NCBI RefSeq assembly: GCF_963676485.1 | Contig: NZ_OY781114.1 | Span: forward strand, 2,136,501 to 2,200,500 | Reading direction: 5' to 3' | DNA length: 64,000 nt | From: an uncultured Cohaesibacter sp. | GTDB taxonomy: Bacteria; Pseudomonadota; Alphaproteobacteria; Rhizobiales; Cohaesibacteraceae | In this document: positions 8,008-64,000 of the stretch, piece after piece | Layout: every line of letters begins with the position of its first letter | Numbering within the stretch: position 1 is the first letter of the stretch | Notes under the pieces: model-generated | Seen by the model: only the letters and a program-made list of their open reading frames with translations | Databases searched by the model: none | What the model was told of the DNA's origin: nothing | Translations under genes and position numbers: made by a program

Positions 8008-8790
8008 ATGGTTGAACTTGCGCTGCCGAAAAATTCACGGATTAAAGAAGGCAAGACTTGGCCAAAGCCTGAAGGTGCGACCAACTTGACCGAATTCCGC
8101 GTTTATCGTTGGAATCCTGATGACGGCAAAAACCCCCAGATCGACACTTATTATGTTGATCGTGACGACTGTGGTCCAATGGTTCTCGATGGGCTGCTCT
8201 ACATTAAAGACAATATCGATGCGACACTGACGTTGCGCCGTTCTTGCCGTGAAGGCATCTGCGGTTCCTGCGCCATGAACATCGACGGGGCAAACAATCT
8301 CGCCTGTACCTTTGGTATGGACGAATGCAAGTCCAAGTCTGTGAATGTGTATCCGCTGCCGCATATGAAAGTGGTCAAGGACCTTGTTCCCGACCTCAAT
8401 AATTTCTATGCCCAGCATGCGTCTATTGAGCCTTATCTGAAAACCGATACTCCGGCTCCGGACACTGAATGGCTGCAGTCTCATGAAGATCGTCAGAAGC
8501 TTGACGGCCTTTATGAATGTATCCTTTGTGCCTGCTGCTCGACCTCCTGCCCATCCTACTGGTGGAATGGTGATCGTTACATCGGCCCATCGGCTCTTCT
8601 GCAGGCTTATCGCTGGATCATTGATAGCCGTGACGAATATACCGGCGAACGTCTGGATCAGCTTGATCATGCCTTCGGTGCCTATCGTTGTCACACGATC
8701 ATGAACTGCACCAAGGTTTGCCCGAAAGGCCTGAACCCGGCCAAGGCAATCGCCGAAATCAAGCGTATGCTGCTTGAGCGTGCTGTTTAG
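8008..8790 (+). CDS. sdhB: Succinate dehydrogenase iron-sulfur subunit
   Basis: 260 residues. The N-terminal ferredoxin-like domain carries the 2Fe-2S cysteines C80, C85, C88 and C100. The C-terminal domain carries C171, C174, C177 and C181 in [11 protein letters not shown], then C228, C234 and C238 (NCTKVCPKG), for the 4Fe-4S and 3Fe-4S clusters. The start is fixed by a GGAG seven bases before ATG 8008. It wires the flavin of SdhA to quinone at SdhCD. Confidence 0.97.
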
Positions 8791-8836
8791 TATCGTTCGC
8801 GATTTCTGGCTTTGAGCCAGAAGCAATGTGAATCAG

Positions 8837-8879
8837 AACCGCCCTCCAGAGTGATCTGGTGGGCGGTTTTCTATTTTTT
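8837..8879 (+). terminator. Intrinsic terminator of the sdh operon
   Basis: AACCGCCC (8837-8844) pairs with GGGCGGTT (8861-8868), with an inner CCAGA/TCTGG stem, and is followed by TTCTATTTTTT. It lies 47 bp after the sdhB stop. Confidence 0.9.
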
Positions 8880-9159
8880 GGTCCGAATGATTTTGAGCAA
8901 AAATGTCCAGTTGTGGATGACCTTGAATGTGGCGACAATGCGGGATTATTGTTTTTAGTTTGTTGAAATATATGAGAAAATCGTAATCTTGACATGCAAC
9001 CTGACAATGGCCATCTAAGAGCTGACATTATCAATCAAACAGAATTCCTGATTTCCGGCTTGCTTCGGGGGAGTGAATGACAATTTTGCGGAATTGTCAC
9101 GGAGTTGTCGGAAAGATTGTTTAGTTGGCAGCCTGTGCGTTGGCAGAACGGAGGGTTTC
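8880..9159. other. Non-coding stretch before the LMW-phosphatase-like gene
   Basis: About 280 bp without a convincing gene. It is AT-rich at 8940-8990 and contains TTGACA at 8989-8994 as a possible -35 box, but no good -10 at the right spacing. A GGAGG ribosome binding site ends it. Confidence 0.35.
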
Positions 9160-9615
9160 ATGCTGCAAACGAATATCCTGTTCCTTGATGAAACGAACAA
9201 TGATCGGAGCATCATGGCTGAAGCCTATTTCAATCGGGGGCTCAACAATGCGGTGCGCGCGTTCAGCGCAGGATTTGCGCCTGCGGAAAGATTGGACAGA
9301 TACGTGTTCGACGTGCTCAGAGAGAATGGCATAGCGCCCGAGGATTATTGCCCAAAGCCGGTCGATATCTTCTTGCAGGCCTACTCGCCACGTATTGATC
9401 TCGTTGTCGGATTTGAACCTGCAAGTGGGGCCTATAAACGCCCGATCTTTCCTTGCAATCCTCCGGCCACTTATCTTAACGTGCTGGCCTCCCATGATCG
9501 GGAGCAACTGCCAGGCCATCGTCGAAGAACAGTAAGAGAGACCTATGCGGACCTGCGCCTTGCCATCGATCGGGCTATTGCAACGGGCTTGTTGCCCGGC
9601 TCCATGGCTGCTTGA
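9160..9615 (+). CDS. Low-molecular-weight phosphatase/arsenate reductase-fold protein lacking the catalytic cysteine
   Basis: 151 residues from ATG 9160, chosen because GAGGG lies just upstream; a longer frame from 9073 has no such site. The N-terminus ILFLDETNNDRSIMAEAYFNRG matches the P-loop of LMW protein tyrosine phosphatases and ArsC (LFL-C-x5-R-S-x-MAE). D10 sits where the nucleophilic cysteine should be, while R16 and S17 are kept. Later family features remain: FSAG, VLRENGI, the LDLVV-like strand and the PIFPCNPP segment. It should therefore be inactive as a phosphatase or reductase of this type and may be a binding or regulatory pseudoenzyme. Confidence 0.7.
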   Translation: MLQTNILFLDETNNDRSIMAEAYFNRGLNNAVRAFSAGFAPAERLDRYVFDVLRENGIAPEDYCPKPVDIFLQAYSPRIDLVVGFEPASGAYKRPIFPCNPPATYLNVLASHDREQLPGHRRRTVRETYADLRLAIDRAIATGLLPGSMAA

Positions 9616-9796
9616 TGGAAGACTATGCCTTTCAGGCCGGGGTCATCACCGGGTCCGGTCTGCTAAAACTGCATGACAGCTCGTGTAAAAAGGCTGACAT
9701 AAGTAATAAAATGCTACTGATTGGCATTTGCTTTTCTGCGTTTGCGGCTAAACATTGAAGCGGTTCAATGATTTGTGCTAACACAGGGAAAATACT

Positions 9797-9812
9797 AACC
9801 GATAGAACCGAT
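9797..9812. repeat. Tandem AACCGAT repeat upstream of fba
   Basis: AACCGAT occurs twice, at 9797-9803 and 9806-9812, two bases apart and about 100 bp before the fba start. It may be a pair of regulator half-sites. No function can be read from it. Confidence 0.35.
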
Positions 9813-9910
9813 ATCGCTTCCTTCTTTGCTATTTTCTGGACGTTGGAGAAGGAATGTTTTATTTGACTATTGAGAATTAATTTAGTCTCGAAACTTTAAG
9901 GGAGATCAGC

Positions 9911-10993
9911 GTGAGCGGAATCAAATTGAGCCCGGGCGTCATCACCGGCGAAGAGTATTTGCAGCTTCTTGATGCTTGCAAAGAAGGTGGATATGCTCTG
10001 CCTGCCGTCAACGTTACCGGCACCAACAGTCTCAATGCGGTAATGGAAGCCGCTGCCAAAGCAAACTCCGATATCATCATTCAGATGTCGAATGGCGGCG
10101 CACAGTTCTTCGCTGGTCAGGGCGCTCCTGATGCGATGCGCGCGCGCGTTCTGGGATCTGTTTCCATTGCGCAGCATGTGCATCTGTTGGCAAAAGAATA
10201 TGGCATCTGTGCCGTTCTTCATACCGACCACTGCAACAAGAAACTGCTGCCATGGGTCGACGGTCTGTTGGACGAAGGTGAAAAATACTACAAGGCGAAC
10301 GGTCGTCCGCTTTACACCTCCCATATGATCGACCTGTCCGAAGAATCTCTGGAAGACAACGTTGCCATCAGCGCCAAATATCTGGAACGCATGGCTCCGA
10401 TGGGCATGAGCCTTGAAATCGAGCTGGGCGTCACCGGTGGTGAAGAAGACGGCATTGGTAAAGAGCTGGAAGAAGGCGATGCAGCCGATCCTCGTCTCTA
10501 TACTCAGCCTGAAGACGTGCTTTATGCCTATGATATCCTTTCCAAGATTGGTCACTTCACCGTGGCTGCATCCTTTGGTAACGTGCATGGCGTTTATGCT
10601 CCGGGCAACGTCAAGCTGCGTCCGGAAATCCTGAAGCATTCTCAGGAACTGGTTGCCAAGGAACGTAATCTGGCTGACAAGCCTTTGAGCCTCGTGTTCC
10701 ATGGCGGGTCTGGCTCTCCGAAAGCCCAGATTTCCGAAGCTGTGTCCTATGGCGTGTTCAAGATGAACATCGACACCGACATCCAGTTTGCCTTTGCTGA
10801 AGCTGTGGGTGCGAAAGTCGATGAGAATCCGGTTGCCTTCAAGCATCAGGTTGATCCGAAAGACGGCACTCCATACAAGAAATTCTACGATCCGCGCAAA
10901 TGGCTGCGTGCAGGCGAACAGGGCATGATTGCCCGCCTCGAAGAAGCCATGAAGGATCTGGGCTCTGCTGGTCGTTCTGTCGCTTCCAAGTGA
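9911..10993 (+). CDS. fbaA: Class II fructose-bisphosphate aldolase
   Basis: 360 residues, close to E. coli FbaA (359). GTG start at 9911 after AAGGGAGA. The zinc/active-site segment LHTDHC at 103-108 (D106, H107) is present, as are NVHGVYAPGNVKL and VFHGGSGS with the further metal-binding histidines. It cleaves fructose-1,6-bisphosphate to DHAP and glyceraldehyde-3-phosphate, or runs in reverse for gluconeogenesis, which would suit growth on C2-C4 compounds. Single gene with its own terminator. Confidence 0.95.
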   Translation: MSGIKLSPGVITGEEYLQLLDACKEGGYALPAVNVTGTNSLNAVMEAAAKANSDIIIQMSNGGAQFFAGQGAPDAMRARVLGSVSIAQHVHLLAKEYGICAVLHTDHCNKKLLPWVDGLLDEGEKYYKANGRPLYTSHMIDLSEESLEDNVAISAKYLERMAPMGMSLEIELGVTGGEEDGIGKELEEGDAADPRLYTQPEDVLYAYDILSKIGHFTVAASFGNVHGVYAPGNVKLRPEILKHSQELVAKERNLADKPLSLVFHGGSGSPKAQISEAVSYGVFKMNIDTDIQFAFAEAVGAKVDENPVAFKHQVDPKDGTPYKKFYDPRKWLRAGEQGMIARLEEAMKDLGSAGRSVASK

Positions 10994-11020
10994 TAGGCGA
11001 GCATTGTTGCTCTCTGAACA

Positions 11021-11055
11021 AGGCCCTCCGGGAGTTTTCCCGGAGGGCCTTTTTA
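11021..11055 (+). terminator. Intrinsic terminator of fbaA
   Basis: AGGCCCTCCGGG and its complement TCCCGGAGGGCCT form a strong stem at 11021-11050 and are followed by TTTTT. It lies 28 bp after the stop codon. Confidence 0.95.
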
Positions 11056-52546: not shown

Positions 52547-54031
52547 CTATTTGTACCAACTTGATAATGGTTCGGCAGAATGTTTGGCAATGTATTCTCT
52601 AAACTCTTTTTCTCCCATTTTTTCATGACGGGCATCATAAGTTGACGGATCTTGATTGTAGGGAGAACTGGTACTGAATATTACGAAGGATCCTCTAAGG
52701 AATCTGCTAACAGGTCTGGCGCTTTTGGGAAGTGGTTCATTGAGGTCACCTGCATACTCCCAGAGGCCGTATTCCCGATAGTCTCCGGGGTGCAGCTCCG
52801 TAAGAGCCTCGCTATAGGCGTCGGGCTCAATATCACAGATTCCAGTGGGTTCCACCGATTTGGCTTCCAATCGTATGTAACTCCATTGAGGAGAAAAATT
52901 AAAGGACTCGAAAGTGAGTTTGAGTGGCTTCAATATGTAAGCAAGATCGGCATAAATAACAATAAAGCCTTCTTCTCGAGCACGTTCGGCTCGAGTCAGT
53001 GTATTTCCACCGCCGCTAGGCAAGAACATATGATTAAGAGCACGGATTTTTCCAACTTCATTAAGAACCGCCAAAATGTCGTTTACATCTGTCCAAGTCG
53101 CTCTGGTGGGAGATGTTATTGGAAAAAGCCTATTGAGCAATTCGGACCATTCGCTTTTGTTGCGTCTTTGAAAACTCGCAACAATATCCAACCATTCTTT
53201 CAGCCTATGTGATACCTCAGGCATTGTCGGTCTTGTCGAGGGATCGTTTACAGTACAGTCAGCAATCAAATCGTCCAAAGTAGATAAGTAAAAGTCCCCT
53301 AGAAAGTTCTTTAGCCCTAGGTCGGAGTTTGCTACATAATGTCCGTCAAACCCAAGAAATTGCTTAGTTAAGGCAATCCAAAGAGTTTTTGAAAATGAGA
53401 AAACATCAGCCTTTTGACCGTCAGCTTGGCTTGCACGGCGACGCATTTCTGGAGCCATTGTAAACTTCGGTCCGACATCGCGTCTTTCAGGCGTAAGGGC
53501 GGCTTGTTCGGGATATTTGACCAAACCGAAGTCTGAGAAGCAAAGCCGACCATGCAGAGCGAGAATGTTCTCTGGCTTAATATCTCTGTGAGCAATACCA
53601 CGAGAATGCAGCTCAGATAGAGTATCGGCTAGTTTAACAAAGTGTTCTACTATTTCTTCAGGTGATTTCTTTTCAAGATATTCAATGCAAGGATCTGCCA
53701 AAGGCATAACGTACCAAGGCTTTCCTTCAGATAAGTCATCAGGGAAATGGTGGGCGACCATTGGAATTATACCCTGAATGTCTTTGTTGTCATCCAGTGC
53801 TCTAATTTCATTCCGAAATCGCTTATAGGAAATGCCTGTTAGTTCACGAAGAATTTTAACGGCAAAATCCTCATGCCCATCTTTGGAGGCTTTCCACACA
53901 TCCCCATTGCCTCCAGTGCCAATCTCTTTTTTCAAAGTGAAGTGTTTGGTTTTTGCCCCTGATTTGAGAGAGAGTCTGTGTTTTCGTTTACTCAACACCG
54001 GTTTCCCCTTCAAGCGGGCGTAGTGACCCAT
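52547..54031 (-). CDS. Hanks-type serine/threonine protein kinase
   Basis: 494 residues with an intact kinase domain at about 32-285: glycine loop GTGGNGDV (38-45), ATP lysine K59 in FAVKIL, helix-C glutamate E75, HRDIKPEN (148-155), DFG at 167-169 and an APE motif at 193-195. The remaining 200 residues form no domain I recognise, and there is no membrane segment. It lies 44 bp downstream of the Mrr-type gene on the same strand and is probably the last gene of the restriction cluster. Kinases in such islands can act in abortive infection, which is inference here. Confidence 0.85.
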   Translation of the reverse strand: MGHYARLKGKPVLSKRKHRLSLKSGAKTKHFTLKKEIGTGGNGDVWKASKDGHEDFAVKILRELTGISYKRFRNEIRALDDNKDIQGIIPMVAHHFPDDLSEGKPWYVMPLADPCIEYLEKKSPEEIVEHFVKLADTLSELHSRGIAHRDIKPENILALHGRLCFSDFGLVKYPEQAALTPERRDVGPKFTMAPEMRRRASQADGQKADVFSFSKTLWIALTKQFLGFDGHYVANSDLGLKNFLGDFYLSTLDDLIADCTVNDPSTRPTMPEVSHRLKEWLDIVASFQRRNKSEWSELLNRLFPITSPTRATWTDVNDILAVLNEVGKIRALNHMFLPSGGGNTLTRAERAREEGFIVIYADLAYILKPLKLTFESFNFSPQWSYIRLEAKSVEPTGICDIEPDAYSEALTELHPGDYREYGLWEYAGDLNEPLPKSARPVSRFLRGSFVIFSTSSPYNQDPSTYDARHEKMGEKEFREYIAKHSAEPLSSWYK

Positions 54032-54075
54032 AAAAAAAATTCTGGGGTTTTTCTCAAGATCAAAACCAACACAAA

Positions 54076-54987
54076 CTATATCCCATCAAACCAATCCAAG
54101 TTGATTTCCACGCTTTCGATCATCTTGGTTGAGACGCCCAATTCATATTGCTTGAGGAGGTCGCATAGGCGTTGGCCGTCGATGAGGTCGATGGCAATGG
54201 CTCCGTCTCTGGTTGCTTCATCTGACGCTTGGCTCGTAAAGGTTCCTGTCGTTATGAATAGGCCTTTGTCAGCGCGTCCTTGCATTGCACCGCGAAAATC
54301 TCTGATTTCTTTAGCCCCCACGCTACCCTTCCAGCGTTTGCATTGGAAATAGACTTGGAAAGACACGAGATTAACGCGCAACACCCCAACGCCATCAACA
54401 CCACCATCGCCCGTCTTTCCACGCACTTCGACTTTGACGAATCCTGCTTCCCGTAGCAATCTTTGAGAAAGGCGTTCGAACGCATCGGGTGTCATAGCCA
54501 GCGCCGTTGAAAGCAGTTTTGATTTCCAATCAGCTTTCTTGGCTTCTGCTTCAGAAATGTTGTTTTCTGAACCAATCAGTTCAACTGTTCGCTGCTTTTT
54601 CTCTAAGCGTTTCAGGCGCGCACGTTCCTTTTCCTCATTGTTGACCTGCCTATAGATTACTTTTGTTTCTGAAAGAGATGAAATTGCCTCACCTTTTTCG
54701 GTAAGTGCCCAAATACCTCGTGCTGAATTCTCGATTGCTCCGCCTCTTCGTAAATAGGTGCGCGCCCAGGACAGATAGTAGTTCACCCGTGTGCGAGGTT
54801 CATTACCAGTCATGGCGAAGGATTGTTCTTCTTCGCTCAAACCCTCGATTTCGATGATCTTTTCGTCGAGCTCATGGATTGTTGCCGAGCCGCCGATTAG
54901 CTTGAGGGCTTCGATAGTGGCAAGCATCATACCGGGAAGATCTGGCAGACCCTCGGCTTCGATTGTGAAACGGCGATCTTTCTTCAT
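54076..54987 (-). CDS. Mrr-type restriction endonuclease
   Basis: 303 residues from ATG 54987 (AAGGA upstream); a longer frame from 55053 overlaps the preceding gene. The N-terminal half resembles the Mrr winged-helix domain (RTRVNYYLSWARTYLRRGG, ARGIWALTEKGE). The C-terminal catalytic domain has FERLSQRLLREAGF, GDGGVDGVG and QCKRWKG, giving the D-x(n)-QxK variant of the PD-(D/E)XK site. It ends with GTFTSQASDEAT. Mrr enzymes cut modified DNA, but some partner with methylases. Its place in an operon with a type IIG enzyme leaves both options open. Confidence 0.85.
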   Translation of the reverse strand: MKKDRRFTIEAEGLPDLPGMMLATIEALKLIGGSATIHELDEKIIEIEGLSEEEQSFAMTGNEPRTRVNYYLSWARTYLRRGGAIENSARGIWALTEKGEAISSLSETKVIYRQVNNEEKERARLKRLEKKQRTVELIGSENNISEAEAKKADWKSKLLSTALAMTPDAFERLSQRLLREAGFVKVEVRGKTGDGGVDGVGVLRVNLVSFQVYFQCKRWKGSVGAKEIRDFRGAMQGRADKGLFITTGTFTSQASDEATRDGAIAIDLIDGQRLCDLLKQYELGVSTKMIESVEINLDWFDGI

Positions 54988-55033
54988 AATGAATCCTTCA
55001 ATCTTCTGGTCGTTGGCAGCGAGAAAATCTGCT

Positions 55034-55909
55034 TTACCCAACCCGCCGCGCATGCGCCATCGCGATCAATCCCCGGATCAAGTCTTTGTGGACGTTGATG
55101 TCTTTCTCGGTGAGACGAAGCCTGTAGTGGTTCCAGCGCGTATTATACTCAAGCGTATCGACACCTGCTTCATCTAGCATCGCGTCAATTTCTTCGCTTT
55201 TGGGGATTTTGGGTTCAAAATTGAGAAATTGCCGCTTCGGTCTGAATTGAACGAAGTTGTAGGCCCGCCCCAATTTTGAAAGGCCGATATAGAATTTGTT
55301 GTATTTGAGCTCGACTGCCGGATCTACTTCTTTGATCATCTCAAATAGTTGATCAACGAGTGAGAGAGTTTTCGGCGTGCCTTTTTCTCGCTCCCAATAA
55401 GCCCGATCTGTTGGAGCGCTTTCTGCATCTTCATCTTCATCGACCATTCCGCGCTCGAACTCGTCAAGGATCTTGCTAAAGACGAGCGTGATATGTTCGC
55501 CCACTTGATAGGCTTGCATTTGGATAGCGATGATGGGGATGGATCCATTAAAGAGTGAAATGACATTGAGAAAGCGGCTGGTAATGTCTTCGGCGACCAA
55601 CACCGCGCAATGCTCATATTGCGGATAGCGTTTGCGCTCTATATCCCAATATTCAATGCTGCGGATGATATGCGTCTCATCGGTGGAGCCAAGCTGAAGT
55701 TCTACCTCAAACCGTTTATAGCTGTCGGGGTCTTGCAGCAACAGATCCAGGCGACCGGCTCGTGGTTGGATGCGTTCTCTATCTCTCAGCACCAACTCGC
55801 CCAAGCCAAGAATAGACGGATCGTTGGCAATAATGTCTTGCACCCAATTCTCGGTATAGCTGGGATGGTTCTTCAAAGAGATGCGTTTCGGACGTGTGAA
55901 TTGGGTCAT
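55034..55909 (-). CDS. Restriction-associated PD-(D/E)XK-like protein
   Basis: 291 residues. The centre carries GRLDLLLQD (52-60) and FEVELQ (67-72), a PD-(D/E)XK-like arrangement with Q in place of the lysine. SIEYWDIERKRYPQYEH follows, a pattern I know from uncharacterised proteins found with restriction-modification genes. Its ATG overlaps the stop of the type IIG gene by 4 bp (ATGA), so the two are translationally coupled. It may be a nuclease, an inactive partner or a specificity helper. Confidence 0.6.
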   Translation of the reverse strand: MTQFTRPKRISLKNHPSYTENWVQDIIANDPSILGLGELVLRDRERIQPRAGRLDLLLQDPDSYKRFEVELQLGSTDETHIIRSIEYWDIERKRYPQYEHCAVLVAEDITSRFLNVISLFNGSIPIIAIQMQAYQVGEHITLVFSKILDEFERGMVDEDEDAESAPTDRAYWEREKGTPKTLSLVDQLFEMIKEVDPAVELKYNKFYIGLSKLGRAYNFVQFRPKRQFLNFEPKIPKSEEIDAMLDEAGVDTLEYNTRWNHYRLRLTEKDINVHKDLIRGLIAMAHARRVG

Positions 55910-58900
55910 GCGGCATATCTCCCATCGTCAGTGATTTGGGCCTGACCAAGGGCAGCAAGGCTGGCGAGGAGAGGCTCAACGGTTGTGGTGCGGGCTCGCT
56001 TGAAGCGGCGGGCGACCTGTTCCGGTGATGCTTCACCCAGCTCCTCAAGAGCCTCACGCACGGCGGCAAATTGGTCTGGTAGGGCCTTGGGCCATGGCGC
56101 CTTGTCCTTGGTCTCTGTAGACGCAACGTCCATCTTGGCTTGTTTGTCCGTTGCCTCAGTTTTGGTGCCATCAGGGTTCTGATAGTCAGGCCGCAACCAG
56201 CGGATATGGCCCGCAGCCTCCTCGGCAGCCCGTTCCTTGTTCAGGTCTACAAGGCGGAAGAGAATCTCTTCGTCTGTCAGGTCAACGGGCCAGCCATAAG
56301 CCTCAGCGACGGCCACATCGATCTGATCGTGAATGTCCTTAAGGATGCCGATCAAACCCTGATCATAGATGTCTTTGTCCTTGCCTTCGATGGACTCGCC
56401 TGCGCGCAATTTTTCCATCACATTATACATTTGTGTCAGGGTCAGCTTGGGATGGGCTTCCTGCTGCCTTTTGCGATGCGCGTCCAATTCCTCGCCGAGG
56501 CGGTCAAGGGTGGCGCGTTGGGCGTCAGTGGGATCGGGGAAGGGAAATTTGTTAAAACAGTCCGTGTGATTATATGTTGGATCGTTGCCCGCCCCAAGCC
56601 AGCCTCCAGCAGCTAAAGCGAAAATGGAATGGGTCTTGCTGCTTAGGACAGAGTACTGCCATTTATTTGGTAGAGTAATAACTACGATTTTACTCTCAGC
56701 AATTATTGTAGAAGGTAAAAAGGAAAACAACCTATGTTTTGCCGTTCGCGTGGTGGCGATTATATTAGAAATGCCGTTTGAAGATTTTCTGAGTTCCTCG
56801 TGTGTTCGACCATACCACCACCAATGTTTCTTTCTCCAAGGCTCTCTATTTTGATCACGCTCTGGTTTAACGGTATCTCTAACATGTTGATATATTTTGG
56901 GGTATTTACTTCTAACGTGTTCTACATCAAGTGGATACAAATCGATTGCAAAAAGACCACGAGAGCATTGTGCCAGATCTCTGCCATTCATGTATGGTCG
57001 TATAACTTTTTCCAACTCATTTTCAGCAGGAGCAATTAATAGATCCACTTCTTCCTTGGATACGATAAATCCTGAACCATGAAGCTTCATTCCCATGTGA
57101 GCTAAACCTTTATTGGATTGCAATGAATTACTCCCTAACACATCCGCTCCAATCCTTAGATTGCCAAAAATCTTGCCAATCTGATGATTAAAGGTAACCT
57201 CACGACCGCCTTCTTCACTTTCTTCTTTGCTCTCGGTTGCCACAGTCAATAAACGTCCGGTTCGGCTGCCCTTGGCGGCCACCGTCATGGCGATGCGCAC
57301 GGCGGCGCCATCCTTGCTGTCCACCCATGGATGATCGGGAATGGCAAAGAGCAGGGAAAGCGGTTTTTTCGGGTCGCCTAAATGCGGTTCCAGCACCCGG
57401 CAATTGAAGGTCTGACGCAAGCTGTTCGTGGTAATGAAGCCGAACCGGCGGCTTTCTATGCCTTTGGAGGCGTCATAGTCCCGCGCCCTCAAGGCTGCTT
57501 TTTCCCACCAGAACATGACAAGATCGGCACTTTGCGGCATCTTAGGATAGGCCTTCCAGAGCGCTTCTGTGTAGCCATCACCGAGATAATCGCGCAGGCG
57601 GCTCGCGCCAATAAACGGCGGATTCCCGACGATGAAATGTGCCTCTGGCCAGTTTGCCGGTTTCGGGTTTTTATAATCATAGACCTTGATGCGAGCGGTC
57701 GGGTCTGGCACTTCTTCGCCAGTGACAGGATGAGGCTTGGTTGTTATGCCATCCCACCGTGTGACCGGCTCCCCATTCTCATCAAGAGAGACCTCCTTAT
57801 CATCCCAATCCAGAACGGCATCGCGATTTTCGATATTCTGGAAATCTCGCAGGACTGGCTCTGTGGGCGAGGCGTCGCCATGGGTGCGAAAATGCCATTG
57901 CAGATAGCCGATCCAGAGCACCAGTTCAGCCACAGCCGCCGCCCAAGGATTAAGCTCAATGCCGAGGAATTGATGCGGGTCGACCGTATAGCCGGAGAGA
58001 CTCAAGGCGCCTTGCTGTTCGCCCAACTCTTCCAGTAGCGCCGTGACTTCCCCTTCAAGCCGTTTCATCATTTCCATGGCAACATAAAGGAAGTTGCCCG
58101 AACCACAGGCAGGGTCGAGAACCTTCACCTCGCAAAGCTTGCGATGGAACTCATGCACGGTTTGAAGGGCTTCCTTGTTTTTGCCATCCTCGGTCAGGCG
58201 CTGAACAGACGCTTTGACGCTGTCCCAATCCATGCGGAGCGGTTCAATGACGGTGGGAATGACCAATCTTTCGACATAAGCGCGCGGGGTGAAGTGAGCC
58301 CCCAGCTTGTGGCGTTCGCGTTTATTCAGGGCGCGTTCCAGGAGCGTGCCGAAGATGGCTGGTTCCACCTGTTTCCAGTCAGCCTCTGCTGCTTCTATCA
58401 GGAGAGCAAGTTGGTGATCGTTGATTGGGAGTGCTTCAGCATTTTTGAACAGGCCACCATTGAAGCGCTTGAGATCCTCCATCAGCACCCCGCAGAAGCC
58501 GCCTGTGTCCATGGTCTGCCAGAGATTGCTGAAAGCGGATTGAACCTTGTCCGGCTGGCTCTCTAGCCGCTTTAAGAGATCCGTGAAGCTGCGATTGGGT
58601 AGCAATTTGACGTCTTCGGCGAACATGGAGAAAAGGCAGCGCATAAGGAAGCTGGCCACCTTCTCACTATCATGGCCCTGAGCTTCAAAGCTCTTTCCGA
58701 GTTCTGCCAAATGGGACGCAATTGCACGGGTGACTTTGGCTGATTGAAGAGCCGGATTGAGTGAAAGCGGATTGGTCCATATCGTCCGCAGAAGATCGCG
58801 CGTTTCTTCTTTTCGTAGATCATCGATAGAAATGCGATATCGGTTGCCATCGGGGAACTGGGTATAGCCCTGACCAATGCCGGAGAAGTCCGCGTATATC

Positions 58901-59409
58901 TCAAATACATGCCCAACATCAGCAATGATCAAAAAGGGCGGCCATCCATCTTCCTTCGAAACAGCGCGGGCATAACGGTCTGCCTGCCCTCGCGCTTTGA
59001 GCATGGTATCGTCCCATTTTGCCGTGCCTCGCTGGCCGTGACCGAGACGCTCCTTGCTGGCTGATTGTTTCGCCAGAGCTTCAATGCCATCTTTTGGCTT
59101 TTCAGCGCGATTGCCGCCCTGCTTGGCTTCCAGAATGAAACAACCCTTGCGATAGAGATCGATCCGGCCTCTGTTATTGCTGCCCGTATGCGTGAAGGTG
59201 ACGGGGCGCTCGAACCGATAATCGTTGTTCTGGCCATCTTCCTTGGCAGGTTTGGGCCGCTCAACGCCCAATAGCTCGGTCAACTCGTTAGCAAAACTTT
59301 GGAAATTCGCCATTTCACTGCCACCTGACTCCTTCCAGCGTGTGATGAAGGCATCAACGTTGCTGAGAGCTAGATCGGAAGTGTTGGCAGGATCGGTTGG
59401 GGTATTCAC
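55906..59409 (-). CDS. Type IIG/MmeI-like restriction-modification enzyme
   Basis: 1167 residues combining nuclease and methyltransferase. Near the N-terminus D84, E94 and K96 (GRIDLYRKGCFILEAKQ) form a PD-(D/E)XK site, as in MmeI. The gamma-class methyltransferase domain has motif I DPACGSGNFLY at about 432-442 and motif IV GNPPF at about 593-597, suggesting N6-adenine methylation. A target-recognition region and a C-terminal helical region follow (DQIDVAVAEAYGWP). Such enzymes cut at a distance from their site and methylate one strand. It heads the minus-strand cluster of four. Confidence 0.85.
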   Translation of the reverse strand: MNTPTDPANTSDLALSNVDAFITRWKESGGSEMANFQSFANELTELLGVERPKPAKEDGQNNDYRFERPVTFTHTGSNNRGRIDLYRKGCFILEAKQGGNRAEKPKDGIEALAKQSASKERLGHGQRGTAKWDDTMLKARGQADRYARAVSKEDGWPPFLIIADVGHVFEIYADFSGIGQGYTQFPDGNRYRISIDDLRKEETRDLLRTIWTNPLSLNPALQSAKVTRAIASHLAELGKSFEAQGHDSEKVASFLMRCLFSMFAEDVKLLPNRSFTDLLKRLESQPDKVQSAFSNLWQTMDTGGFCGVLMEDLKRFNGGLFKNAEALPINDHQLALLIEAAEADWKQVEPAIFGTLLERALNKRERHKLGAHFTPRAYVERLVIPTVIEPLRMDWDSVKASVQRLTEDGKNKEALQTVHEFHRKLCEVKVLDPACGSGNFLYVAMEMMKRLEGEVTALLEELGEQQGALSLSGYTVDPHQFLGIELNPWAAAVAELVLWIGYLQWHFRTHGDASPTEPVLRDFQNIENRDAVLDWDDKEVSLDENGEPVTRWDGITTKPHPVTGEEVPDPTARIKVYDYKNPKPANWPEAHFIVGNPPFIGASRLRDYLGDGYTEALWKAYPKMPQSADLVMFWWEKAALRARDYDASKGIESRRFGFITTNSLRQTFNCRVLEPHLGDPKKPLSLLFAIPDHPWVDSKDGAAVRIAMTVAAKGSRTGRLLTVATESKEESEEGGREVTFNHQIGKIFGNLRIGADVLGSNSLQSNKGLAHMGMKLHGSGFIVSKEEVDLLIAPAENELEKVIRPYMNGRDLAQCSRGLFAIDLYPLDVEHVRSKYPKIYQHVRDTVKPERDQNREPWRKKHWWWYGRTHEELRKSSNGISNIIATTRTAKHRLFSFLPSTIIAESKIVVITLPNKWQYSVLSSKTHSIFALAAGGWLGAGNDPTYNHTDCFNKFPFPDPTDAQRATLDRLGEELDAHRKRQQEAHPKLTLTQMYNVMEKLRAGESIEGKDKDIYDQGLIGILKDIHDQIDVAVAEAYGWPVDLTDEEILFRLVDLNKERAAEEAAGHIRWLRPDYQNPDGTKTEATDKQAKMDVASTETKDKAPWPKALPDQFAAVREALEELGEASPEQVARRFKRARTTTVEPLLASLAALGQAQITDDGRYAA

Positions 59410-59605: not shown

Positions 59606-59627
59606 AGTTACGATAACTGGAAATTAT
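59606..59627 (+). promoter_or_regulatory. Dyad element at the SHMT-like start, shared with the STAND gene
   Basis: AGTTACGATAACT, a 5-bp dyad around a 3-nt centre, is followed by GGAAATTAT and runs into the ATG at 59626. The same 22 bases with a single difference lie at 63318-63297 on the minus strand at the start of the STAND gene. TACGAT could also serve as a -10 box, which would give an almost leaderless mRNA. Confidence 0.7.
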
Positions 59628-60879
59628 GAGCTCTGCTGGCAAAAAACGGAAATACTACGATCGCTTTGAGAGCCTCTCTCCTGGACGGTTGGACGAAATC
59701 ATTGCTATGCAGCGCGGACTGATATCAAATCACCTTCACCTTATAGCCAGTGCCTGCTTTCCCTTTCCCTCGATACTTAAGGCGCAAGCGGAACCATCCA
59801 CTTTGCTTCCAGTGGAGGGAATGCCGGGAGAACGCTATCTACCAGGCGCTTCGGTGATGGATATTGTCGAGACAGAAGGGGAACGAATGCTACTTGATAT
59901 GTTCCCTGATTCAGAAGGATATCGCGCTTCTCTCCAACCGCACTCTGGGACACAGGCCAATCAGATTGTTTACAATGCAATTCTCTCTGAGAAGGACGAG
60001 GTCATTTGTCTTAAACCCGCAGATGGCGGGCATATTTCTCATACTGTTTTGATCTCTAGACGAAACAAGACTTATAACTTTGGCCTAACCGCCGAAGGGC
60101 ATATTGACTATGGTTTACTCGAGAAACGAGCACTCGAGCATCGTCCCAAACTAATTATCGTTGGAGGGAGCTCTTTGCCAAGGATGATCGACTTTGCCAA
60201 GTGCAAAGAGATTGCCCAAAAAGTTGGTGCGCTTCTGCATGCGGATATTTCGCATACATCTCCATTTATAATGGCAGGTTTGCATACCAATGCTCTGCCT
60301 TATTGTGATTTTGCAACCTTTAACATGGTGAAAAATCTTAGAGGGCCCAATTCAGGTACTGTGTTATATCGGGAGAACTTTCACGACGCCATTTGCAGGT
60401 CTATCTTTCCTGGAACACAAGGGGGAGCCAACGAACCTTGTCTACTCGCTAAATATGCGACACTCTGCGAATGGCAAAACCACAGCATCTCCTCTTTTGC
60501 GGACCGGATTGTTGCGATTTCGCAGCTTTTGGCACGCATTATGACAAGGCGTGGCATCAAGCTCGTCACTGATGGAACTGACAGTCATATTCTACTGCTG
60601 GATTTGAGGGAATATAAAGCAACAGGGGCTGAATTTGAAAAGCGCTTTGAAAGCCATCATGTCCTCTTAAACAAAAACCAAGTTCCTGGTGATCAACGCG
60701 GGCCAAGCGTCTCATCCGGCTTGCGGATAGGTGCAACTAATCTGGCCATCCTGGGTGTGAACCAAGAGGATCTCGAGCTACTGGGAAACTGGATATGTGA
60801 TGTTATTGAAGACAAAGCGGACTTATCCGATATAGTGAGCCAAATCCTGCAAAAGTACCCTCAACCAGCCTACTTTTGA
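59626..60879 (+). CDS. SHMT-like PLP enzyme, diverged (glycine hydroxymethyltransferase family)
   Basis: 417 residues aligned along their length with SHMT. PLP residues are kept: K236 in MVKNLRGP, D207 in HADISH, H136 in GGHISH and R367 in SSGLRIGA, and E64 matches E. coli GlyA E57. However P62 replaces Y55, L72 replaces Y65 and V235 replaces H228 next to the PLP lysine, and LIASENY becomes LIASACF. The fold and cofactor are therefore likely intact while the reaction or substrate probably differs from serine-glycine exchange with folate. It stands alone on the plus strand between the restriction cluster and a convergent STAND gene. Confidence 0.8.
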   Translation: MSSAGKKRKYYDRFESLSPGRLDEIIAMQRGLISNHLHLIASACFPFPSILKAQAEPSTLLPVEGMPGERYLPGASVMDIVETEGERMLLDMFPDSEGYRASLQPHSGTQANQIVYNAILSEKDEVICLKPADGGHISHTVLISRRNKTYNFGLTAEGHIDYGLLEKRALEHRPKLIIVGGSSLPRMIDFAKCKEIAQKVGALLHADISHTSPFIMAGLHTNALPYCDFATFNMVKNLRGPNSGTVLYRENFHDAICRSIFPGTQGGANEPCLLAKYATLCEWQNHSISSFADRIVAISQLLARIMTRRGIKLVTDGTDSHILLLDLREYKATGAEFEKRFESHHVLLNKNQVPGDQRGPSVSSGLRIGATNLAILGVNQEDLELLGNWICDVIEDKADLSDIVSQILQKYPQPAYF

Positions 60880-60885
60880 GCAAAT

Positions 60886-63297
60886 CTAGTATCGCCAATG
60901 TGGGGACAGGATATAGGGAACTCTCATTTCTGGACCCAATTTACTCGTCGAAAGAAACAATTCCAATCCAGCCAATTTGGGATTCAGAACCCGGGCCATG
61001 ATCTCGTCGGAAAATTGGACGTTCTTGCCGGAATCGAAGTGCACTGCCAATTCATTGGAGAACCAGCCGAGCGTTTCGATAAATCGAATATCCTTAGTTT
61101 TTTGAGCTTTATGATGGATCTTTAGACATGTCTGGCAAGCATTTTTGCCTGAAATTTTGCCAGTCAAAATAGCTAGGGCGAGGCCATTGTAATCAAACAT
61201 TAGGGCGTCCATTGCCAAAGTGCGCGGAGCATCATCTCTTGCCAATTTTAAGAACTCGGCAGCTTCAACGAAATCTTGTCTCATTAGAGCCAGAGCACTC
61301 AGATTGACAAGAGGTTGATAGATCTCACTGGACAATAGAGTCTGGAGACCGTCACACGCTTGCTTGAGATGCTTCTCTGCTTTAGAGGTTTGCCCCTGAA
61401 GCATCTCTACAATTGCGAGATTACTCAACGTCGTTGCAGTCCCGAAGTCACTTCCCAGCTTCTGAAAGCCAGAAACAGAAACTTGCAGCATTTCACTCGC
61501 CTCTGCTTGACAAAACAGATGGCCTGCGCTTCTCAAGATTGCGTATTCGAATTCAGAACAGGTTTCTCGTAGAGCCTTCGAATAGACTCTTTGCGCAATG
61601 TCTGTTGCTTCATCGTTTTTGTTTAGATTGATAAGGATGTTGAAGCTAACAAGATCTCGTTCAGGGCCACTTTTCGCTTCCTTTAAACTGTCTTGAGCGA
61701 TCTCGTACCGGAAAAGTTGAACCAGATACTTTGCTTCGTAAAGATTTGAGAGAGCACGATGTGCTTCGACTTTCTTACACTTTTCAGCAAGGATCAGGCC
61801 AAATCCAAAGAGCGCACATCGCTGAATGGCATTCAATAAAATAGCGATTGTTGACGAAGGGAGAATGTCTACGATGTCCCAACAAACGGTGTCACGGCCC
61901 AACGTTGAAAGATATGCAAACTGTTCCTGGTCCTGCTTGGTGTGAATAAAATTCACGATATGGGCCTGAATTTGGGGACTGGCTCTTACTTCACTTTCAT
62001 GAGTACTTCCTATCAGTCGATCGTAGAGCACATCCTCTTCGGCCAATTGCTTGCTTGCCAGGAGCCGAACAATTGATTGGACTATCTGTTCACGCAATTC
62101 CAGCTTTTCTTCTTCTGGCGTCAAATCAGTGACAACACTGGCGACTCTTTCATGCTCCACTCTAATCTTGTCATGGGTTTCTGAATTGAGAACAAGCAAT
62201 CCCATTGCCATCATATCATTGATGGCCCACGAAATCTGATTGGGATCAGCACCAAGATTTGCAGCTTTCAAAAGTTCTATAAGGTGAACTACTGATAAGC
62301 CGCCGAGTAGAATAACGATAGTCCGAAGAATGAACTGATCAAGCGGAGGAAGTGATCTCACTACATTTTCGTATGTTCCACTTTGAACGGCAAGCTCATC
62401 CCCCAGTTCAAACCTGTCACATATAAATTTGAGCTGAAACCAGATTGCCTTGAGGTTGCCTTCGCTGCGTCGGTAAAGGCTGTTGGCCAAACCTGTCGGA
62501 TCCTCATGATTTGGTAGCACTGTTTCTACAATGACTAGAGTGTCTGACTCTGAAACTTCCTTCAAAGCAATATCATGTGAAATGGCATTTGCAATCTGAG
62601 GCTGCCAATCTTGAGGGGTGTCATGATTGGTTCGCTCGAGGACGATTAGACGCAACTTTGCACCAGCCATTTCAAACGCCTGATCCAGTATTTCCAAGAC
62701 GCTTGATGGTAAAAATTGGATATTGTCGAGCGCTAAAACTACTGGGTGACTATGTGACAATTCAAGACAGTGCAAAAAAAGAGCCGCATCTCCCTGGATC
62801 GGTTTAGCCCTGGTCGGAAGTTTCACAGGCAGGATAGCTTTGACAAATGGGCCAGCTATCGGGATTTGTGCAACTAAGTCACGAAATACTCCGTAAAGAT
62901 AGCCAAGAAAGGACACGTTAAACAGCAGCTTTCTTTGCTTCAGTTTGGAAGCCATTTTTCTGGACAGACTAATAGGATGCTGTCGCGTCGCAGCGCTCTC
63001 TTTGCTGAGGAGCCTTCCCAGTTTCTCGATTATTCTTGATGCTTCGAGATCAGAAGGAGGCGTATCGAGGTATAGTGTTATAACGTCTCTGTTTGCTTGG
63101 GCAATCCGAACCAGCAGTTCCCGAGCAAAAAAACTCTTCCCAACTCCAGAAGTCCCGAGCAATTTAAGGACTCTTGATCGACTTGATCCACCAACATCGA
63201 GAAAAGAAATTGCTTCTTCCAGCTCCTGCTCTCTAAGGACAAAAGGCCAGCCATCTTCAGATCTAAAAAATCGTCCAGTTTCACCATCCACGATCAA
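60886..63297 (-). CDS. STAND-type ATPase with C-terminal helical repeats
   Basis: 803 residues. An AAA_16/NACHT-like ATPase region has Walker A GTSGVGKS at 48-55 and Walker B VVLALDN at 186-192, then RLIVLERTN as a sensor strand. A hydrophobic insert lies at about 131-158. The C-terminal half (about 530-770) is helical with TPR-like repeats (ATTLSNLAIVEMLQGQTSKAEKHLKQA). No DNA-binding helix-turn-helix is visible, so it does not look like a LuxR/MalT regulator. The start is TTG 63297, or GTG 63291. Its stop is 6 bp from the stop of the SHMT-like gene. The architecture fits sensor ATPases of defence systems. Confidence 0.7.
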   Translation of the reverse strand: MIVDGETGRFFRSEDGWPFVLREQELEEAISFLDVGGSSRSRVLKLLGTSGVGKSFFARELLVRIAQANRDVITLYLDTPPSDLEASRIIEKLGRLLSKESAATRQHPISLSRKMASKLKQRKLLFNVSFLGYLYGVFRDLVAQIPIAGPFVKAILPVKLPTRAKPIQGDAALFLHCLELSHSHPVVLALDNIQFLPSSVLEILDQAFEMAGAKLRLIVLERTNHDTPQDWQPQIANAISHDIALKEVSESDTLVIVETVLPNHEDPTGLANSLYRRSEGNLKAIWFQLKFICDRFELGDELAVQSGTYENVVRSLPPLDQFILRTIVILLGGLSVVHLIELLKAANLGADPNQISWAINDMMAMGLLVLNSETHDKIRVEHERVASVVTDLTPEEEKLELREQIVQSIVRLLASKQLAEEDVLYDRLIGSTHESEVRASPQIQAHIVNFIHTKQDQEQFAYLSTLGRDTVCWDIVDILPSSTIAILLNAIQRCALFGFGLILAEKCKKVEAHRALSNLYEAKYLVQLFRYEIAQDSLKEAKSGPERDLVSFNILINLNKNDEATDIAQRVYSKALRETCSEFEYAILRSAGHLFCQAEASEMLQVSVSGFQKLGSDFGTATTLSNLAIVEMLQGQTSKAEKHLKQACDGLQTLLSSEIYQPLVNLSALALMRQDFVEAAEFLKLARDDAPRTLAMDALMFDYNGLALAILTGKISGKNACQTCLKIHHKAQKTKDIRFIETLGWFSNELAVHFDSGKNVQFSDEIMARVLNPKLAGLELFLSTSKLGPEMRVPYILSPHWRY

Positions 63298-63318
63298 TAA
63301 TTTCCAGTTATCATAACT
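63297..63318 (-). promoter_or_regulatory. Dyad element at the STAND gene start, shared with the SHMT-like gene
   Basis: On the minus strand AGTTATGATAACT followed by GGAAATTAT directly precedes the TTG start of the STAND gene. It matches 21 of 22 bases of the element at 59606-59627. TATGAT inside it is one base from the -10 consensus. Confidence 0.7.
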
Positions 63319-63573: not shown

Positions 63574-64000
63574 ATGAATTTTGAATTCGCGACCCATATT
63601 GAAGACTTCCTGGAGTTCTGCCGTACTCAACAGTACCTTAGTGACAATACGATTTTGAGCTACCGACAGGATCTGCGAGCGTTCGCCAAGTTTCTTGCTC
63701 GCACCGGGACGCAGCCGATACAGAGTGATTGCATTCTCGACTATATGAACGATCTGCGATCGCGACAGGCCTTGGCACCAGCCACGGTGCGTCGAAGAAT
63801 GGTTTGTTTGAAGAAATTCTTTAAGTGGGCGTCCAAGTCTGTACAGGATGGGCCAACACCTTTTGATGGGCTGGAGCTAGACCTCAAGGTGCCGAAAAGG
63901 CTTCCCAGACCTATTGACAGAGATACTCTCCGACAACTGTTCGTATCCGAACTAAGACATCTTCCGAGAGCTCAAAGTCGCACAGAAGCACTGGGCCATT
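63574..64000 (+). CDS. Tyrosine recombinase/integrase, N-terminal part (cut by window edge)
   Basis: The frame from ATG 63574 stays open to the window end (142 residues). An in-frame TGA 18 bases upstream fixes the region of the start. The N-terminus is the SAM-like core-binding domain of phage/XerD-type recombinases: FLEFCRTQQYLSDNTILSYRQDL, then ATVRRRMVCLKKFFKWA and PRPIDRDTLRQLF at the entry to the catalytic domain. The catalytic residues lie outside the window. It is divergent from the STAND gene (276-bp gap) and is the likely mobility gene of the island or of an element inside it. Confidence 0.8.
   Translation, partial: MNFEFATHIEDFLEFCRTQQYLSDNTILSYRQDLRAFAKFLARTGTQPIQSDCILDYMNDLRSRQALAPATVRRRMVCLKKFFKWASKSVQDGPTPFDGLELDLKVPKRLPRPIDRDTLRQLFVSELRHLPRAQSRTEALGH

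Follow-up and report, generated by a model that had tools for sequence, protein, structure and literature searches.

Putative recombination sites of an adjoining XerC-like recombinase bound a cassette of two convergent genes in an uncultured Cohaesibacter sp.

Introduction

The window analyzed here is a 64,000-nucleotide stretch of DNA from an uncultured Cohaesibacter sp. (assembly GCF_963676485.1, contig NZ_OY781114.1, positions 2,136,501 to 2,200,500). Near its right end, two convergent genes, coding for a serine hydroxymethyltransferase (SHMT)-like enzyme and a STAND-type ATPase, each begin at a copy of a 22-base element, and a gene for a XerC-like tyrosine recombinase adjoins them. The element looked regulatory because it overlaps or adjoins the start codons, and the original prediction read it as an operator, a promoter or a leaderless-start signal that controls both members of a two-gene system. 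We report here that the copies are better explained, with a probability of roughly 0.86, as core sites of the adjoining recombinase, which would delimit a mobile cassette made up of two convergent genes, the SHMT-like and STAND pair being one such cassette.

Results

A repeated element at two convergent start codons

The sequence at 59606-59627 on the plus strand, AGTTACGATAACTGGAAATTAT, and that at 63318-63297 on the minus strand, AGTTATGATAACTGGAAATTAT, are identical at 21 of 22 bases, carry the dyad AGTTA-N3-TAACT, and lie inverted around the two genes, which start at the originally assigned ATG at 59626 (SHMT-like) and TTG at 63297 (STAND). A scan of the window allowing up to three mismatches recovered just these two copies and none in 100 shuffles. 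In the entire genome of 5,079,296 bases, the dyad is present twice, both times at this locus, while the backwards dyad pattern, used as a control, matched 11 times per strand; the element is therefore neither a chance match nor a common genomic motif, and the idea that it might be spread across the genome is contradicted. Among 19 inverted repeats found in the 9 kb region, the element pair ranks first. Immediately beyond the right end of the window, another convergent gene pair is flanked by two related copies (GGTAACGATAACTTGGAATTAT) whose centre differs. At related loci, the block conserved within pairs is about 27-29 bases long, here 59606-59634 and 63318-63290, and the one mismatch between the two window copies, C/T, is in the outer arm, i.e., the part that belongs to the flank. 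Among viral contigs, the element pattern matched four, with no inverted second dyad copy of the same centre (one mismatch or fewer); these matches, their contexts untranslated, were taken as chance.

The adjoining recombinase and a second cassette

The gene from 63574 codes for a 313-amino-acid (aa) XerC-like tyrosine recombinase (Pfam Phage_integrase, 6.6e-37). The catalytic set of tyrosine recombinases is R-K-H-R-H-Y, and R161, K185, H254, R257, H280, and Y289 of this protein were invariant in 12 of 12 aligned recombinases. Its stop codon falls within a third copy of the element, GGTAACGATAACTTGGAATTATCT, which opens a second cassette closed by a fourth, inverted copy 2.7 kb beyond. This cassette, outside the window, contains a pyridoxal 5'-phosphate (PLP) aminotransferase-like gene (a weak Pfam match, under the curated cut-off) convergent with a gene for a pentapeptide-repeat protein. 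The locus thus reads as site, SHMT-like gene rightward, STAND gene leftward, inverted site, recombinase gene rightward, second site, PLP gene rightward, pentapeptide-repeat gene leftward, and inverted second site, with the recombinase between two cassettes. The centre of the first pair is CTGGAAA and that of the second is CTTGGAA. Sites flank the recombinase gene on both sides at seven places (G000, G044, L048, L049, L064, L110, and L137), with two different centres in all seven (in L110 and L137, one of the two sites may be chance). Since the two centres differ, the recombinase gene itself would be kept from inversion. No block beyond the site was common to all recombinase 5' regions (12 aligned of 21 taken).

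Table 1. Features of the cassette region in the window; the arm lengths of both predicted sites follow those of related loci
Feature	Position	Strand	Remarks
Left recombination site (predicted)	59606..59634	+	Outer arm AGTTACGATAA, centre CTGGAAA, inner arm TTATGAGCTCT; includes the SHMT-like ATG
Cassette gene 1: SHMT-like PLP enzyme, 417 aa	59626..60879	+	Pfam SHMT 3e-78; ATG at 59626
Cassette gene 2: STAND-type AAA_16 ATPase with tetratricopeptide (TPR)-like repeats, 803 aa	60886..63297	-	TTG start within the site
Right recombination site (predicted)	63290..63318	-	Outer arm AGTTATGATAA, centre CTGGAAA, inner arm TTATTGATCGT; orientation opposite to that of the left site
XerC-like tyrosine recombinase gene, start	63574..64000	+	313 aa; continues beyond the window to L007:2015

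Site anatomy and agreement of the centres

In many relatives, the site takes the form of inverted ATAA-N7-TTAT copies bounding two convergent open reading frames (ORFs) that start at the site edge. A tyrosine-recombinase core site has two inverted arms around a centre of 6-8 bases that is identical in partner sites. In a search of 94 sources with a restricted choice of centres, inverted pairs agreed in the centre in 39 cases, disagreed in two, and were off by one base in one; none of the 18 pairs in other orientations shared a centre. After duplicates (L058, L094, L095, L131, and L133) were dropped, 34 same-centre pairs and the pair of L097 remained, so that the centres agreed in 34 of 35 pairs, as against a mean of 5.3 and a maximum of 14 in 20,000 trials of random dealing. 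Bases agreed better within pairs than between them over a span from about -6 to +20 (34 pairs for which the full context was available), which suggests 11 bases for the outer arm, 7 for the centre, and about 9-11 for the inner arm. A span of this kind is the size of a tyrosine-recombinase core site, and the ATAA/TTAT arms, the 7-base centre and the agreement within pairs together give the element the anatomy of one.

The original prediction was right in taking the element for a DNA-level signal and not for coding sequence that the two genes share; the features above argue against a single regulator or promoter for both genes. A shared operator, promoter or leaderless-start element would account for a repeat that ends at both starts, and GGAA-, GGGA- or AGGA-like bases were seen by eye 5' of the start codon in many loci. 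However, such an element would not be expected to have a centre that is identical within pairs and different between them, in pairs that are inverted only, or to track a recombinase gene, with the cassette content switching exactly at the element (see below). We therefore regard co-regulation of the SHMT-like and STAND genes by this element as most improbable.

At L048, an inverted repeat of 44 bases (97.7% identity; 8354-8397 and 10981-11024) reaches into both cassette genes, and owing to it two unrelated proteins share the N-terminus MGMAEKGI.

Recombinase and sites occur together

A recombinase search of 297 genomes of the order (E <= 1e-42) gave 11 genomes, and the site pattern GATAACTDGRAATTAY matched 15 of the 297, while its backwards control matched none. 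Ten of the 11 recombinase genomes carry the exact site pattern, eight of them as inverted pairs by the recombinase (10 pairs). The other five pattern genomes are G086, G149, G125, G201, and G275; matches in the last three, which have no recombinase match, were set aside as probable chance. G149 had no recombinase match at E <= 1e-42 or 1e-60; its lone site (L057:6260-6289), whose outer flank matches that of the distal L048 site at 29 of 30 bases, is possibly an empty or decayed docking site. In G086 (L002/L008), a more distant recombinase is followed by a site and a 421-aa STAND gene, with no SHMT gene; the STAND gene has a guanine-plus-cytosine (GC) content of 0.47 within a stretch of 0.65 and looks like the remnant of a decayed cassette.

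Genome contigs were scanned with the 12 aligned recombinases, and the best 80 of 287 relatives were kept. They range over Roseobacters, Hyphomicrobiales, Oleiagrimonas, Tahibacter, Nitrospinia, and Eremiobacterota; in the window's own genus, the recombinase is found in 3 of 18 genomes. With no restriction on the centre, ATAA-N7-TTA adjoins the recombinase at 51 of the 80 loci (54 sites), and 31 of the 54 sites have an inverted partner of identical 7-base centre, with 15 different centres in all; direct partners and partners with a reversed centre numbered zero. Seven of the 80 records had served in motif discovery, and without them 26 of 47 sites were partnered. Other centre lengths (3-6 and 8-11) gave 18 adjacent sites, none partnered (0 of 1 at length 6). 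A motif-free test, in which the recombinase flanks were compared with the DNA outward of them, found a longest exact inverted match of at least 16 bases at 29 of the 80 loci, and ATAA-N7-TTA lies in that match in all 29. In Methylobacterium, Paenibacillus, and two plasmids of Aliarcobacter, gene pairs are likewise flanked by sites of this form, with other centres. Among 40 viral recombinase relatives, L138 alone scores like this family (42%, 6e-67); it has a site with two mismatches and no pair.

Related recombinases at L081-L083, L086-L093, L186, L187, and L191, mostly on Roseobacter replicons, have no adjacent site of this form. The three of them that carry annotation lie near helix-turn-helix and ImmA/IrrE genes, and one near Qat defence genes; they perhaps represent another use of the same recombinase family. 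At L065 (16906-18689) and L121 (8683-10274), site-bounded cassettes lie about 6 and 8 kb, respectively, from the recombinase gene of the locus, so cassettes may also occupy secondary places.

Contents of the cassettes

Two convergent ORFs (the longest beginning within 200 bases of a site) fill 30 of the 35 segments, leaving at most 62 bases uncovered, and for 67 of the 70 ORFs the start lies no more than 26 bases from the first base of the site (the two of L097 are doubtful). With starts at the site edges, there is no space for a promoter inside the cassette. The GC content of the cargo is lower than that of the flank in 31 segments, equal in one, and higher in three.

Cargo families retain their partners. 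A PLP-like protein occurs with a pentapeptide protein in 5 of 5 cases; a methyltransferase with a 336-aa protein in 4 of 4 (by profile also in Streptococcus salivarius and Aliarcobacter, GNAT-like in the latter); a CDP-alcohol transferase with a 342-aa protein in 2 of 2; and a 357-aa with a 553-aa protein in 2 of 2. ATP-grasp ligase-like proteins are found in four segments, three of them with one STAND family; the partner in L047 is an 853-aa protein with just a weak AAA_22 match. Glycosyltransferases are found in four segments, each with a large AAA_16-matching protein (two of the four above the curated cut-off, two BLAST-linked). In the L049 cassette at 8551-10486, a stretch of 164 residues is 99.4% identical between the products of the two convergent genes, which looks like an inverted copy of part of one gene placed within the other.

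The SHMT-like protein of the window belongs to the SHMT family by its Pfam match and, in an alignment, retains the position of the PLP lysine; alanine stands in place of the canonical LIASEN glutamate, and the S. salivarius homologue, aligned by eye, has isoleucine there. No PADLOC family, Avs and other known anti-phage STAND proteins included, matched the SHMT-like or STAND protein of the window. Ten other cargo proteins gave one PADLOC match, a weak one of the SIR2-STAND protein of L104 (Avs2, 3.7e-9). A role of the cargo in defence or antagonism is possible because of the recurring pattern of an enzyme with a STAND, pentapeptide or membrane partner and this weakly Avs2-like protein.

Left of the cassette, the minus-strand run at 52547-59409 codes for a MAD6/PD-T4-6-related kinase, a 291-aa protein, an Mrr-type nuclease, and an MmeI-like type IIG restriction enzyme; judged by its predicted proteins, it is a defence island adjoining the cassette.

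Different cassettes at one place

Plasmids were searched by tblastn with the recombinase, STAND, and SHMT-like proteins. The ICDC2 plasmid of S. salivarius carries an SHMT-like gene (+), a STAND-TPR gene (-) and the recombinase gene (+) in the order of the window. The convergent pair proposed as a two-gene unit thus recurs beside a tyrosine recombinase, and this record contradicts the possibility that the two genes do not occur together elsewhere. The ICDC2 sites have the ATAA-N7-TTAT form in other letters, so that the form of the element is conserved, and the literal 22-mer is not. Against co-occurrence, the sole other close STAND homologue found, that of G086, has no adjoining SHMT: searches for the STAND protein gave itself and the G086 copy in the 297 genomes of the order (E <= 1e-20), and itself in 385 genomes of the class (E <= 1e-15).

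Four sister plasmids hold other cassettes between the same pair of sites, a methyltransferase pair in SALI-10 and LAB813 and a polyprenyl-synthetase pair in NU10 and Streptococcus equinus. Across these five Streptococcus plasmids, the recombinase DNA is 96-100% identical, and three unrelated cassettes lie between the same sites. The 60 bases outside the sites are 97-100% identical, those inside 32-38%, on both sides, and identity runs 25-28 bases into the site before dropping. In the window's genus, L048 and L049 share a 1,259-base block, 97% identical, that ends at the sites, and their cassettes differ. By their sequence identities, recombinase and cargo differ in history: L007 and L067 are 52% identical in the recombinase and 68% and 68% in the cargo, and L007 and L048 are 76% identical in the recombinase and 23-24%, in short local matches, in the cargo.

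Terminal inverted repeats of a transposon that has lost its transposase would likewise give inverted ends around a cargo of low GC content. Nevertheless, no transposase family was found among the cargo proteins scanned, a transposon end would not be expected to vary in its centre between loci and yet match within a pair, and the sister plasmids hold different cassettes at one place, with the recombinase outside, by one repeat. We consider transposon ends very unlikely.

Orientation of the cassettes

Relative to the recombinase, homologous cassettes are found facing either way: L078 versus L101; L067 versus L048 and L135; L112 versus L053 and L061; and L198 versus L100, L115, and L128. Similarly, the ATP-grasp gene is distal to the recombinase in L197 and L199, and proximal in L055, L130, L136, and L189. 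Free orientation over evolutionary time would lead to such a distribution. Sister pairs of Rhizobium and R. denitrificans have no sites and hence are uninformative on this point. Extended -10-like sequences were noted by eye outside the Streptococcus sites.

Both orientations, together with inverted sites and an adjoining recombinase, would also suit an inversion switch (phase variation), in which only the gene that faces a promoter outside is expressed and inversion exchanges the enzyme for its partner, as in the G segment of phage Mu. Sites and recombinase would be the same, serving regulation and not exchange. However, a cassette's two genes are not related to each other (the second L049 cassette excepted), and partners are kept across phyla, which suggests that both genes are needed; moreover, entire cassettes are replaced, and no strain was found in both states. 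An inversion switch is for these reasons a possible but rather unlikely explanation.

Discussion

The original regulatory interpretation is replaced here by one of recombination sites, and the idea of a two-gene system survives in a broader form. According to the favoured explanation, the recombinase would pair two sites of matching centre. Crossing between the inverted sites of one cassette would invert the cassette, and an incoming cassette with matching sites could replace the resident one via the formation and resolution of a joint molecule, the route suggested for dif modules. The genes would be read from promoters outside the sites; since each gene begins at the inner site edge, whichever gene arrives could be read from outside.

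Several observations weigh against this explanation. An adjacent site of this form is missing at 29 of the 80 recombinase loci, and 23 of the 54 sites are unpartnered, 16 of these having 1,620 bases or fewer to the contig end. The L097 pair violates the centre rule by one base, and five of the 35 segments depart from the two-gene rule (L097, L104, L112, the second of L047, with three genes, and the second of L049). The pair of SHMT-like and STAND genes was found in one record besides the window, the S. salivarius plasmid. Three sister Phaeobacter plasmids, and each of the two Streptococcus pairs with the same cassette, are alike in orientation. Promoter scans around the window and Streptococcus cassettes were no better than shuffles, nor were terminator scans. 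Finally, cassettes could also be transferred between sister plasmids by homologous recombination of their flanks.

Beyond this locus, we lean towards the view that the sites and recombinases define a class of mobile elements spanning phyla, in which a docking station, composed of a recombinase gene and one site pair, or two that differ in their 7-base centres, takes up and swaps promoterless cassettes of an enzyme and a partner by natural recombinase-mediated cassette exchange, with many uncharacterised gene pairs as its cargo. In such a class, the enzymes would be SHMT-like, aminotransferase-like or ATP-grasp ligase-like proteins, glycosyl-, methyl-, prenyl-, and carbamoyltransferases, spermidine synthase, and others; the partners would often be a STAND ATPase, a pentapeptide-repeat protein or a membrane protein, possibly serving defence or antagonism. 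If true, two-gene systems could be found by one rule (ATAA-N7-TTAT, inverted, with the same centre, beside this recombinase) in a pool covering Alphaproteobacteria, Gammaproteobacteria, Campylobacterota, Bacillota, and others. The spread and cohesion of gene pairs would be explained, and a natural example of cassette exchange would be at hand, with recombinases whose choice of partner may depend on a 7-base centre and with many testable enzyme-partner pairs, the SHMT-like and STAND pair included.

No description of such a system was found in the open-license PubMed Central (PMC) literature, as judged from titles and the starts of abstracts among the matches listed. Cassette exchange with Cre or Flp is a laboratory method in which inverted matched sites permit a swap; the sites here are likewise inverted and matched, and this would be a natural occurrence. 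In inversion switches such as the phage Mu G segment, shufflons, and invertons, a recombinase lies beside a segment with inverted sites; unlike in these, the partner genes here are unrelated and the content of the segment differs between sister plasmids. Integrons, whose attC sites fold as single strands, are platforms in which a tyrosine recombinase reshuffles gene cassettes with head-to-tail sites, in arrays. The present loci share with them the tyrosine recombinase platform and the gene cassettes, but the sites are inverted, with no direct same-centre pairs, each cassette has two convergent genes, and one cassette lies on each side, with no array. A subgroup of integron integrases is named in PMC8138268.

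A close likeness is to the dif modules of Acinetobacter plasmids, which are bounded by inversely oriented ATAA-spacer-TTAT sites (pdif sites; PMC13141974), as the cassettes are here. Inversion and excision are reported there where the spacers of the sites are identical or differ by one base, and exchange through cointegrate formation and resolution is proposed. The dif modules have a 6-base spacer and distinct XerC/XerD arms, in contrast to the 7-base centre, the own adjoining recombinase and the near-fixed content of two convergent genes seen here; among the lengths of 3-11 tried, partnered sites occurred at 7 only (31). Modules of the dif type are recombined by XerC/XerD of the host; at the present loci, a recombinase gene adjoins the sites. 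In chemistry and logic, the present system resembles both dif modules and integrons, and it departs from each in one defining feature.

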